Source: Deferrisomatales bacterium (GTDB taxonomy: Bacteria > Desulfobacterota > Deferrisomatia > Deferrisomatales > JARGFW01). From it: 52,681 nucleotides of DNA. The notes beneath the pieces were generated by a model, which saw nothing but the letters and a program-made list of their open reading frames with translations, was not told the origin of the DNA and made no database searches. Shown one piece after another: positions 42,740-52,681 of this stretch. The DNA lies in the NCBI GenBank assembly GCA_029211085.1, contig JARGFW010000012.1, forward strand, positions 1 to 52,681, read 5' to 3'. How positions within the stretch are numbered: the stretch's first letter is position 1; every line of letters starts with the position of its first letter. Made by a program: the position numbers and the translations under genes.

Positions 42740-42880
42740 CTTGTCTCACGCAAAGCCGCCAAGCTCGCAAAGGAAGGCATAAACTTTTTTTGGTAGGGAT
42801 TCCCATTGATCATGGATTCCGGAAGTGGGCCGTTCCCCTTCCCTGGTTTCCCTTTGCGCCTTTGCGTCTTTGCGTGAGAA
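42740..42880. repeat. Heptad repeat locus 1: inverted B pair
   Basis: A B-type unit (TCTCACGCAAAGCCGCCAAG, 42740-42775) faces an inverted B unit (42850-42880) across about 75 bases, giving a long imperfect palindrome between the coupled 457-residue gene and the M55 gene. B is a run of 7-base CGCAAAG-like steps beginning TCTCACG. This is the leftmost locus of the family in the window. Confidence 0.9.
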
Positions 42881-43698: not shown

Positions 43699-43717
43699 AA
43701 GAGAACACCCAAAGGCG

Positions 43718-43842
43718 TCTCACGCAAAGCCGCGAAGACGCCAAGAACGGCCTTATTACCTTGAAAACAGTAGTCCATCTCTTCCGTAAACAACAAAAAG
43801 CCGTTCTTGATTTCCTTTGCGACTTTGCGGCTTTGCGTGAGA
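43718..43842. repeat. Heptad repeat locus 2: near-perfect inverted B pair
   Basis: B (43718-43750) and inverted B (43801-43842) pair over nearly their whole length, including the extra AAGAACGG / CCGTTCTT ends, around a 50-base core. The locus sits between stops of two convergent genes, 20 bases after the M55 stop and 15 bases from the FemAB-like stop. Confidence 0.92.
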
Positions 43843-44979: not shown

Positions 44980-45317
44980 GAACCGCCAAGGCGACAAGGA
45001 CGCCAAGGGATGCCATTCTTGGGGGAAACCTAAGATCCCTGTCTCACGCAAAGCCGCCAAGTCGCAAAGGGGGGAAATACCATTTACGATTCTCGGACTT
45101 GCCACCATTCACGGCTTCTCTGAACCGCCAAGACGCCAAGGGACGCCAAGGAAGACACTTCTCGTGTGAAACCCTGGAAACCTTGTCTCACGCAAAGCCG
45201 CAAAGAACGGCGGGCTGTATCTTCAAAAACAAATCAGTGAAGGCTCGTCCGGGTTGATCTTGCGCCTTGGCGGCTTTTCGTGAGAACGCCCTTGGCTTTT
45301 GACGTCTTGGCGGTTCA
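44980..45317. repeat. Heptad repeat locus 3: A-B and nested A-B...B'-A' element
   Basis: Units in order: A 44980-45009, B 45039-45070, A 45122-45151, B 45182-45207, inverted B 45259-45285, inverted A 45300-45317. A is GAACCGCCAAG plus CGCCAAG heptads; B is TCTCACGCAAAGCCGCAAAG. The second half is a complete nested palindrome A-linker-B-core-B'-A'. The A-B linker contains CTTCTCGTGTGAAACCCTGG, close to the linkers at 51.46 and 52.4 kb. It separates two divergent genes, and the frame of the CapA-like gene begins inside inverted A. Confidence 0.93.
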
Positions 45318-45385
45318 AGCCCCTACAGTGCAGCGCCCTCGGGATGATAGGATGTGCCCCCCCACCCGAGACCAAAGGACGTTCC

Positions 45386-46486: not shown

Positions 46487-46498
46487 AGGCAACGTCGG

Positions 46499-46748
46499 TC
46501 TCACGCAAAGCCGCAAAGTCGCCAAGAAGATCTTTGTTCTTGTTTTTCTAAACAGAGAGTAAAAAGGCAACTTCTGCCTCACGCCAAGCCAAGATGTCTC
46601 CAATAGGGATGGTTGTTTATCAAAAAAAATCCAAAAAAGGTTTTCCTGCTTCACCCTTGGCGCCTTGGCGGCTTTGCGTGAGAATGCCTTTAATGCCCTG
46701 TCTTTGATCCTTTTCCAACCTCACCTTGCGACTTTGCGCGAGACAAGG
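46499..46748. repeat. Heptad repeat locus 4, reaching into the PaaK-like gene
   Basis: B at 46499-46528, a partial B near 46578-46597, inverted B at 46655-46684 and another inverted B at 46724-46748. The last lies inside the open frame of the leftward PaaK-like gene and supplies its final ~8-codon segment LSRAKSQG. Between convergent genes. Confidence 0.9.
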
Positions 46749-48133: not shown

Positions 48134-48426
48134 GAACCGCCAAGGCGCCAAGTACGCCAAGAAAGACCATCCTTATGGGAGAGACAGATACGTCAGACCA
48201 TCTCATACAGAACCACAAAGGTGCAGAGAACGGCTGCCGTTGCACCGACCAAACCTCTTGAACCGCCAAGACGCCAAGATCGCCAAGAAACAACCCTCAT
48301 CGGTGAGAACCTGAAAAATCATATCTCGCGCGAAGTCGCGAGGATGTTTGGATTCCTGGATGGGGTCAACGGGAAGAAGACCTTTCCCTTCTCACACCTT
48401 GGCGCTCTTGGCGCCCTGGCGGTTCC
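48134..48426. repeat. Heptad repeat locus 5: two A, degenerate B, inverted A
   Basis: A at 48134-48162 and 48260-48290, a diverged B-like unit at 48324-48343 and inverted A at 48397-48426. It fills almost the whole gap between the PaaK-like start and the deacetylase stop, leaving four and six bases respectively. Confidence 0.9.
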
Positions 48427-49450: not shown

Positions 49451-49481
49451 TCAACCGCCAAGGCGCCAAGGTCGCCAAAAA
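49451..49481. repeat. Heptad repeat locus 6: single A unit
   Basis: CAACCGCCAAGGCGCCAAGG followed by TCGCCAAAA, a lone A unit directly upstream of the deacetylase start. It and locus 7 bracket the GxxExxY gene. Confidence 0.88.
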
Positions 49482-49552
49482 TTGCTTTGTGTTCTTTCCG
49501 CAAGAAACGTTGATTGGCTTATTCCCTTTCGCGACAACGCTGCATCTTCGGT

Positions 49553-49960
49553 TCAATCATCAACCTTTCCCAAGACGACACGCTTGATGCCACGCTTCAG
49601 GACGGGCACCTTGAAGTTGATCAGGAGCCCCAGGGACAGGCCGGTAGCCTTGAGGTACGAGAGCAATTGCGCGTGGTGGATTGGAGCCAGTTGGTCAACG
49701 GCTTTTAGCTCCACGATCAGCACGCCACCAACCAGCAGGTCGAGTCGCCCCTCTCCGACAGGATGCCCTTTGTAATTCACGGCCACTGGCGCCTGTCTTT
49801 CGAAGGCGATGCCGCGCAGCCCGAACTCGTGCGCGAGAGCTTCCTCGTACACGGACTCAAGGAATCCGGGGCCCAGAACTCGATGGACTTCAATCGCAGC
49901 GCCGATCACTACTTTGGCGATCGCGTCGCACTGTTCTCCAGGCTCACTGAACACCAACAT
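49553..49960 (-). CDS. GxxExxY protein, PD-(D/E)XK nuclease fold
   Basis: A 135-residue protein with the defining motif G32-FL-E35-SV-Y38 (GPGFLESVYEEAL) of the GxxExxY family, classed in the PD-(D/E)XK nuclease superfamily. The nuclease core is visible: Asp74 in GRLDLLV, then Glu84 and Lys86 in LIVELKA, and the family's QLLSYLKATG. GGAGG lies three bases before the ATG. Cellular role unknown. It stands alone on its strand between heptad repeats at 49451-49481 and 49981-50089. An involvement in repeat spread is suggested as a hypothesis only. It is intact and of normal length. Confidence 0.9.
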   Translation of the reverse strand: MLVFSEPGEQCDAIAKVVIGAAIEVHRVLGPGFLESVYEEALAHEFGLRGIAFERQAPVAVNYKGHPVGEGRLDLLVGGVLIVELKAVDQLAPIHHAQLLSYLKATGLSLGLLINFKVPVLKRGIKRVVLGKVDD

Positions 49961-49980
49961 CCACCTCCATCAGGCCAGTC

Positions 49981-50089
49981 CAAACGCCAAGACGCCAAAG
50001 TCGCCAAAGAATTCCAGGGCTATTGACGTTTTCGCATTTCCAACAAAGAAACAAGGACTTCTTGGCGACCTTGGCGTCTTGGCGGTTCC
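49981..50089. repeat. Heptad repeat locus 7: inverted A pair
   Basis: A at 49981-50010 and inverted A at 50060-50089 around a 49-base core, giving a palindrome with CTTGGCG/CGCCAAG steps. Between the GxxExxY start and the ATP-grasp stop (10 bases away). Confidence 0.91.
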
Positions 50090-51370: not shown

Positions 51371-51402
51371 CTGAGTGCTGAGTACTGAGTGCTGAGTGCT
51401 TA
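51371..51402. repeat. Heptad repeat type D
   Basis: Four 7-base steps CTGAGTG-CTGAGTA-CTGAGTG-CTGAGTG followed by CTTA. Its period equals that of the A and B units although the sequence differs. Upstream of the ATP-grasp gene. Confidence 0.85.
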
Positions 51403-51427
51403 CTGCCTCACCATTCACGGCCCTTTT

Positions 51428-51608
51428 GAACCGCCAAGACGCCAAGGACGCCAAGAGAACCTCTTATTGTGTGAAAACCTGGAAACCTTGTCTCACGCAA
51501 AGCCGCCAAGTCGCAAAGAAAGACAGATCGACTCTTTTCGTAACTAGTTACCGCTTACGACTCACGCCCCCCTCGCCCCCTTGGCGTTCTTGGCGCCTTG
51601 GCGGTTCC
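51428..51608. repeat. Heptad repeat locus 8: A-linker-B, type C, inverted A
   Basis: A at 51428-51457, conserved linker (TTGTGTGAAAACCTGGAAAC), B at 51487-51520, a type-C stretch (TACCGCTTACGACTCACG) around 51550-51567, and inverted A at 51578-51608. It lies between the divergent ATP-grasp and vapB-like genes, with the antitoxin promoter immediately to its right. Confidence 0.92.
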
Positions 51609-51678: not shown

Positions 51679-51918
51679 ATGCACCGAACCACCATCATGT
51701 TGCCCGACGATCTTCTCAACCGGGCCCGCCGGCGCGCCGAGTCGGACGGCACCTCCCTCGGCGAGTTGATCCGCCGGTGCCTGGATCGGGTCCTGGCCGA
51801 GTCCGCGAAACCCACCGGACCGGACCCCCTGTTCGCGGATGACGCGGTATTCCGCGGTCCCGCTCCCCAGGACATCGCTGCCGAGCACGACCGTTACCTG
51901 TACGGCGAAGACCCGTGA
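51679..51918 (+). CDS. vapB: VapB-like ribbon-helix-helix antitoxin
   Basis: A 79-residue protein whose N-terminus MHRTTIMLPDDLLNRARRRA followed by SLGELIRRCLDRVL is a ribbon-helix-helix DNA-binding domain; the acidic C-terminal tail would bind the toxin. A perfect AAGGAGG lies five bases before the ATG at 51679, so upstream in-frame ATGs are not used. The stop overlaps the GTG of the toxin gene (GTGA), the usual coupling in such pairs. It should bind its own promoter. Confidence 0.88.
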   Translation: MHRTTIMLPDDLLNRARRRAESDGTSLGELIRRCLDRVLAESAKPTGPDPLFADDAVFRGPAPQDIAAEHDRYLYGEDP

Positions 51919-52319
51919 TCTACATCGACACGGGGGCGTTCATCGCCCGCCATGTGGTGAGAGACCACCACCACGAGTCGGCGGTAGGCTGTTGGAAAGA
52001 GCTCGAACAAACCGGCACCCGCTGTTTCACCAGCAACTTCGTTCTCGACGAAGCTTTCACCCTGCTCGCCCGGCGCACGACCTATGCCTTCGCCGCAGAC
52101 CGCGCCCGGCACATCCTGGCGTCCTCAGTGTTGACCATCCTGCGCCCGGGAGCCGAGCAGGACGGCCGCGCCGTCGAACTCTTCGAGAAGTACGCCGACC
52201 AGGCCGTCAGCTTCACCGACTGCATTTCCTTCGTCCTGATGACGGAGGCGAAGTTGAAGCGGGCTTTCACCTTTGACCGCCACTTCCAGTCCGCCGGTTT
52301 CACCCTCTGGCCCGGGTGA
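51915..52319 (+). CDS. vapC: VapC-like PIN-domain toxin
   Basis: A 134-residue PIN-domain ribonuclease. The acidic active site is complete: Asp5 (IYIDTGAF), Glu46 (VLDEAFTLL), Asp102 (SFTDCISFVL) and Asp121 (TFDRHF). VapC toxins cleave RNA, often tRNA, when free of antitoxin. It starts with GTG overlapping the antitoxin stop. The pair sits between repeat loci 8 and 9. Intact, so probably functional. Confidence 0.93.
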   Translation: MIYIDTGAFIARHVVRDHHHESAVGCWKELEQTGTRCFTSNFVLDEAFTLLARRTTYAFAADRARHILASSVLTILRPGAEQDGRAVELFEKYADQAVSFTDCISFVLMTEAKLKRAFTFDRHFQSAGFTLWPG

Positions 52320-52330
52320 ACCTATGGAAC

Positions 52331-52361
52331 GGCTCACCGCTTTCGGCTCACGACTTACCGC
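52331..52361. repeat. Heptad repeat type C
   Basis: GGCTCACCGCTTTCGGCTCA then CGACTTACCG: 7-base steps of the form (C/T)ACGGCT. The same type-C run recurs within the 152-bp units to the right and in locus 8. Confidence 0.75.
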
Positions 52362-52370
52362 CCTTTGGAA

Positions 52371-52681
52371 CCGCCAAGACGCCAAGGTGCGCCAAGGAAA
52401 CCACTTCTTGTGTGAAATACTGAAAAACCTTGTCTCACGCAAAGCCGCAAAGTCGCAAAGAAGGGCGACTCTCTGTTTGGAACGGCTTACCGCTTACGGC
52501 TCACGACTCACGGCCTCTTCCACCGCCAAGACGCCAAGGTGCGCCAAGGAAACCACTTCTTGTGTGAAATACTGAAAAACCTTGTCTCACGCAAAGCCGC
52601 AAAGTCGCAAAGAAGGGCGACTCTCTGTTTGGAACGGCTTACCGCTTACGGCTCACGACTCACGGCCTCTTCCACCGCCAA
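52371..52681. repeat. 152-bp tandem duplication of an A-linker-B-C block, cut by the window edge
   Basis: Two units, 52371-52522 and 52523-52674, appear identical base for base; a third begins at 52675 and runs off the window. Each unit holds A (CCGCCAAGACGCCAAGGTGC), the TTGTGTGAAATACTGAAAAA linker, B (TCTCACGCAAAGCCGCAAAG) and type C (CTTACCGCTTACGGCTCACG). Identity means a recent duplication or an assembly effect. Confidence 0.93.

Follow-up and report, generated by a model that had tools for sequence, protein, structure and literature searches.

Positions 45122-45317 of the window (the whole stretch of DNA analysed, 52,681 nucleotides, which is one entire contig, C259, of a 5.8 Mb draft genome) raise the question of what a long nested palindrome represents in a bacterial intergenic region. 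An earlier note had described the locus as A-linker-B-core-B'-A' and had proposed a hairpin DNA or RNA as its functional or transposed form. The nested architecture is present in the window sequence, as follows:

45122-45150, plus strand: A end, outer left arm, three iterons CGCCAAG(N), GAACCGCCAAG-ACGCCAAGG-GACGCCAAGG
45151-45183, plus strand: linker, common to the A-linker-B copies at 51.4, 52.37 and 52.52 kb
45184-45205, plus strand: B end, inner left arm, TCTCA plus CGCAAAG iterons, GTCTCACGCAAAGCCGCAAAG
45206-45258: core, not homologous to those of other copies
45259-45285, minus strand: B' end, inverted, inner right arm, one base altered, CTTTTCGTGAGA
45286-45318, minus strand: A' end, inverted and degenerate, outer right arm, CTTGGC...GACGTCTTGGCGGTTC

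Each arm proved to consist of 8-9 bp units in tandem, a point absent from the earlier note. Written as tandem units, A reads GAACCGCCAAG-ACGCCAAG-gACGCCAAG and B reads TCTCACGCAAAG-CCGCAAAG-TCGCAAAG; both consist of a short run of octamer iterons (CGCMAAGN) preceded by a constant end sequence, GAACC.. or TCTCA.., respectively. Alignment of the inverted arms scored 15.5, compared with a mean of 7.1 (SD 1.0, maximum 11.0) for 500 dinucleotide shuffles. When 45122-45317 was folded, we obtained -50.4 kcal/mol for DNA (z = -6.25) and -87.3 for RNA (z = -5.34), with no shuffle as stable in either case.

Such strong folding is what favors the view that the palindromes are selected hairpins, of RNA or single-stranded DNA, with a functional stem. 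However, the two arms do not vary in a compensatory manner: in a set of 21 independent nested copies, the left B arm differed from the right by 10.19 positions within a copy and by 10.07 between copies (permutation p = 0.62). Moreover, the 7-base iterons are conserved but the spacers within the arms vary freely, many copies are one-sided, and Rfam yielded no match in the window. A tRNA scan of it was also negative. With iterons defined in either species, thereby avoiding labelling bias, divergence between orthologous copies was 3.3% in iterons, compared with 15.5% in the remaining element sequence (p = 3e-13), and 10.5% in the flanks; iterons are conserved while cores drift. Retention of the iteron, but not of the pairing, fits sites read by a protein and, judged from these sequence comparisons, the arms resemble paired ends for protein binding, not a stem selected for its pairing. 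We therefore regard a functional hairpin as highly improbable, and that part of the earlier proposal did not survive the comparison of arms.

Iteron elements and a nuclease gene in the window

Between 42.7 kb and the end of the contig, iteron units occupy nearly all intergenic gaps, a crowding likewise missing from the earlier note, and they take the forms A..A', B..B', A-linker-B and B inside A. Elsewhere in the 5.8 Mb genome they are almost absent (27 of 33 exact double-unit matches lie on the window contig). Besides the palindrome, the following elements were identified:

42741-42879: B..B' element, the inner form alone
43716-43842: B..B' element with extended pairing, AAGAACGGC/GCCGTTCTT
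44980-45070, plus strand: separate one-sided A-linker-B unit just upstream of the palindrome
46498-46683: B..B' element, with additional partial B units at 46578 and 46732
48134-48161, plus strand: one-sided A end
48260-48421: A..A' element
49453-50088: A-gene-A' element, the nuclease-bearing form
51428-51607: A-linker-B..A' element
52359-52662, plus strand: 152-bp tandem duplication, A-linker-B twice (97%)

The companion loci cited previously (B..B' at 43718-43842 and 42744-42879, and A..A' at 48260-48421) are real. They had been interpreted as one architecture at different completeness; nesting accounts for this variation, each locus having a single A element, a single B element, or a B element lying within an A element.

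The genes amid these units are surface-polysaccharide and related genes, encoding an M55 peptidase, a PEP-CTERM-type FemAB protein, PGA_cap, a PaaK-like CoA ligase, a deacetylase and an ATP-grasp enzyme. We did not find the FemAB-CapA gene pair of the window in any relative of its genome, so an empty site for the window locus is not demonstrable. The FemAB gene has a truncated paralogue (~78-80% identity) at C14:11893-12507 (L046), flanked, as in the window, by a B' unit and an A-linker-B unit. Between A/B elements, at 51679-52319, lies a likely toxin-antitoxin pair, consisting of a ribbon-helix-helix protein (FitA-like, below cut-off) and a PIN-domain protein (PF01850, 49.5 bits). Further short tandem tracts (GCTGAGT and CGGCTTA-like heptamers) occur beside A/B elements at 51378-51405, 52325-52362, 52478-52515 and 52630-52667, and are possibly the ends of additional families.

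One gene of the region, 4 kb from the palindrome, is itself enclosed by an inverted A pair (49453-49487 and 50053-50087), which the earlier note had also not recorded:

49553-49960, minus strand: GxxExxY protein, 135 aa, PD-(D/E)XK nuclease (TIGR04256, PF13366)

The protein scored 146.7 bits against TIGR04256 (cut-off 35) and 144.5 against PF13366 (cut-off 22). In an alignment of 80 sequences, D74, E84-x-K86, Q98 and Y102 were invariant and E35 was conserved. Its predicted structure (pLDDT 93) indicates a PD-(D/E)XK fold with intact catalytic residues, the nearest solved structures being LHK-Exo, Cas4 SSO0001, lambda exonuclease and MGME1, at weak E-values (best ~2e-3). No sequence relatives were found in the PDB or in a scan of viral contigs; a plasmid scan yielded eight distant relatives. 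The same genome carries two more GxxExxY genes, one on C232 between inverted tandem units ATCCGTGA and one on C435 between ACATGAAGG. Thus, its three GxxExxY genes have three distinct iteron types, each matching on both sides.

We consider it probable that these loci belong to a widespread family of iteron-ended elements, in which the gene-bearing member is the GxxExxY unit and palindromes such as 45122-45317 are gene-less nested members. The palindrome itself would then be two non-autonomous insertion elements, B..B' nested inside A..A', a reading that we hold jointly with this explanation and with the same confidence.

Iteron ends at GxxExxY loci across bacteria

Scanning of 84,980 species genomes identified 80 GxxExxY loci in many phyla. 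At these loci and at the three genes of the window's genome, we counted iteron pairs, defined as CRCNRAG occurring twice. Their density reached 9.3/kb on the plus strand in the left 100 bp and 12.8/kb on the minus strand in the right 100 bp, versus 0.03-0.25/kb beyond 500 bp, so that inward-oriented iterons are ~50- to 100-fold denser at the gene edges; a reversed-pattern control gave ≤1.4/kb. Of the 73 loci that could be scored, those with both flanks, 64 had correctly oriented iterons at the gene edges (both sides in 39, one side in 25). The ends are mostly triplets of the general form ACC or TCA followed by CRCNRAG x3, with 7-base iterons at 8-9 base spacing, and the gene-bearing unit measures ~460 bp (range 460-650 bp).

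At each locus, the two ends match each other and the nuclease that they enclose. Left and right iterons of the same locus showed 1.63/21 unit differences, compared with 4.64 between loci (p = 5e-5), and their spacing patterns agreed in 97% of cases within a locus versus 31% between loci. Consistently, iteron type tracked protein distance (Mantel r 0.23, p 0.0002; r 0.234 with G+C controlled).

A clean case of B-type (TCTCA-type) ends, TCTCACGCAGAG..., was provided by a Nostoc GxxExxY gene (L144); hence, both the A-type and the B-type ends of the window have gene-bearing counterparts. We found no GxxExxY gene with B-type ends in the window's own genome, and for this reason its B copies may be relics. 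In Nostoc, the GxxExxY gene resides at one site in 11 of 11 genomes. Separately, we observed in Nostoc relatives (L185-L224) that a GxxExxY-type iteron unit hitchhikes in a dispersed, many-copy MITE of ~150 bp with TATAGCAATCC ends. Solo iterons of Nostoc were considered as free copies and rejected; because most of them lie inside the TATAGCAATCC MITE, they were not counted as evidence of mobility.

Site occupancy and nesting in Thioalkalivibrio

Our sample of 30 Thioalkalivibrio genomes revealed that copies come and go at orthologous sites. At one site (L100), a GxxExxY unit is located between two conserved genes, and eight relatives are without the unit there, having a short gap instead. Seven genomes at this site present three nuclease alleles and three iteron types, namely CACAGAG (G001, G036), CACGAAG (G034, G032, G054) and CAGGAAGA (G031, G040).

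Dispersed gene-less copies in these genomes have the structure A (CACGAAG x3)-linker-B (CACAGAG x3)-core-B'-linker'-A', with mirrored spacing. Many such nested A-B-core-B'-A' copies exist, with iterons other than those of the window, and queries built from joined flanks showed that the same sites are empty in relatives. Two sites display the following states:

L262 site: empty in G026, G033, G035 and G037; A..A' in G036; A(B..B')A' in G034 and G032; A(C..C')A' in G031 and G040
L267 site: empty in G040, G054 and G037; A..A' in G036; A(B..B')A' in G034, G001 and G039

G054 was also considered as empty at the L262 site and rejected, since it carries a deletion remnant, and it was left out of the empty count. 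Elements nest, and the occurrence of different inner elements in the same outer element is direct evidence of successive insertion. Nested copies in unrelated bacteria, and a site that is empty in some genomes and holds a single or a nested element in others, bear out the suggestion that the palindrome is a transposed form. No target-site duplication was definable at the two aligned sites, where flanks are too diverged.

An alternative view holds the iteron arrays to be host binding sites or terminators, comparable to BIMEs and kept for regulation or chromosome packing. Consistent with such a role, copies are intergenic and the iterons of solo copies are under purifying selection, but it leaves the flanking of GxxExxY genes, the nesting and the empty sites unexplained. 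We accordingly give a host-site origin very little weight, although such a role could be secondary.

Copy number varies in step with the presence of the nuclease and with its iteron type. A whole-genome pattern count found 53-272 iteron pairs in seven of nine genomes with the gene and ≤13 in 20 of 21 without it (Fisher p = 1.3e-4, a value that overstates independence because the genomes are related, the seven high-copy gene carriers being one clade). The two gene-bearing exceptions had 3-4 pairs, their CACGGAT ends being invisible to the pattern. In these two Thioalkalivibrio-group genomes (L247, L248), the GxxExxY genes lie within CACGGAT iterons beside putative nucleotide-sugar genes. Among genomes without a detected gene, G042 had 77 iteron matches, and G039, in which the gene is absent and which by its flanks looks to be of the same clade as the seven, had 12 matches and kept filled sites.

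From these patterns, we infer that GxxExxY moves the elements. It would bind the iteron triplets at both ends of an element, the gene-bearing member in the window being the A..gene..A' unit at 49453-50088, and then cut or process the DNA there, after which host repair would place a copy into a new intergenic site. Existing elements would be favored or tolerated landing sites, which could account for both nesting and clusters such as that at 42.7-52.7 kb. B elements would require another GxxExxY with TCTCA-type ends, as in Nostoc L144.

Conversely, GxxExxY may be passenger cargo, with another transposase or host recombination moving the iteron-ended elements. The filled sites or many iterons of G039 and G042 would then need no nuclease gene, and the fixation of GxxExxY at a single site in all 11 Nostoc genomes and the carriage of Nostoc iterons in a different MITE point the same way. 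On the other hand, the arms enclose this one gene family in many phyla, and the units are too small to encode a second enzyme; even at a single orthologous site, iteron type and nuclease allele correspond; and copy number follows the gene. On balance, a cargo role seems unlikely, and movement by GxxExxY remains our preferred explanation.

One further finding sits less easily with it. We looked for shared cores among paralogous copies and found none homologous, although orthologous cores are alignable, and non-homologous cores are not expected from simple whole-element copying unless the copies are old. Either these are old copies that keep only their arms, or arms were placed around other DNA by another route. 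Three Thioalkalivibrio copies (L272, L276 and L285) have a common short core motif resembling GATGAGCGCNGCGAATCGCATC, perhaps a fourth nested family.

Relation to known repeat systems

By analogy, the system is best read as REPIN/RAYT-like, built on a different enzyme, and not as a member of REPIN/RAYT. The two resemble each other in having intergenic palindromic doublets in which a spacer separates conserved arms, a distinctive gene that is often single-copy and has repeats at its edges, and long genomic persistence (PMC3116915, PMC8266576, PMC8049555). The elements described here are symmetric doublets of two conserved arms plus a spacer, and their cognate gene occurs at one site with repeats at its edges (all 11 Nostoc genomes, Thioalkalivibrio, and the 64 of 73 loci above). 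In contrast, the REPIN/RAYT enzyme, TnpA-REP, is an HUH (Y1) IS200-like transposase, whereas profile HMMs and the predicted fold indicate a PD-(D/E)XK nuclease here; REPIN/RAYT palindromes end in a GTAG or CGTC tag, rather than ACC-CRCNRAG or TCA-CRCNRAG; and the ends here are tandem 8-9 bp iterons without REP hairpins, on elements that nest.

Rpn/YhgA-like proteins are also nucleases of the PD-(D/E)XK kind; they came to be called transposases and have been tied to recombination and horizontal transfer. We know of no iteron ends associated with them. They form a family (PF04754) distinct from GxxExxY, and were later reported as phage-defence toxins (PMC5350276, PMC10327210).

The elements also resemble MITEs in being short, non-autonomous, intergenic and inverted-ended, and short inverted-ended elements are indeed missing at orthologous sites of relatives, as shown in Thioalkalivibrio. 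At the loci analysed here, the gene between the ends is GxxExxY, and no DDE transposase with such ends was encountered; no target duplication was seen at the two aligned sites with their diverged flanks.

In a 2018 survey, short tandem repeats, chiefly heptamers, were the most abundant periodic intergenic repeats in prokaryotes, with no clear clue to their function (PMC6344855). Our results tie an 8-9 bp class of such repeats to a named, uncharacterised nuclease through matched ends, orthologous presence/absence and a stepwise nesting series. An old repeat puzzle thereby becomes testable, in terms of cognate iteron binding or cutting by GxxExxY and of gene loss versus new copies. Such repeats are easily mistaken for regulatory palindromes. 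In the open-access literature, we found no earlier description of iteron-ended GxxExxY elements, and searches with the repeat strings likewise gave nothing relevant; one paper names GxxExxY merely in passing (PMC8934634). The evidence suggests a family of bacterial mobile elements that has attracted little notice.

More broadly, and tentatively, it is quite possible that GxxExxY nucleases serve a new class of mobile element in prokaryotes as its enzymes, the element being a ~460 bp one-gene unit with ends of 8-9 bp iteron triplets, that this class together with its gene-less nested derivatives accounts for many unexplained intergenic short tandem repeats, and that S23 genes with heptamer iterons are a parallel class. 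The 23S rRNA intervening sequences with S23 four-helix-bundle ORFs share a small ORF, heptamer direct repeats, terminal inverted repeats and a long-suspected mobility with the elements described here, but they encode another protein, their classic copies are in rRNA, and their iterons are 7 bp (PMC4990558). S23 genes with heptamer repeats may be a parallel class of iteron-ended elements. In the window's own genome, two S23 (PF05635) genes, at C143:3490-3804 (L129) and C14:115-420 (L130), are situated amid inverted heptamers (AACCCAC/AACCCAG; GGAACCC).
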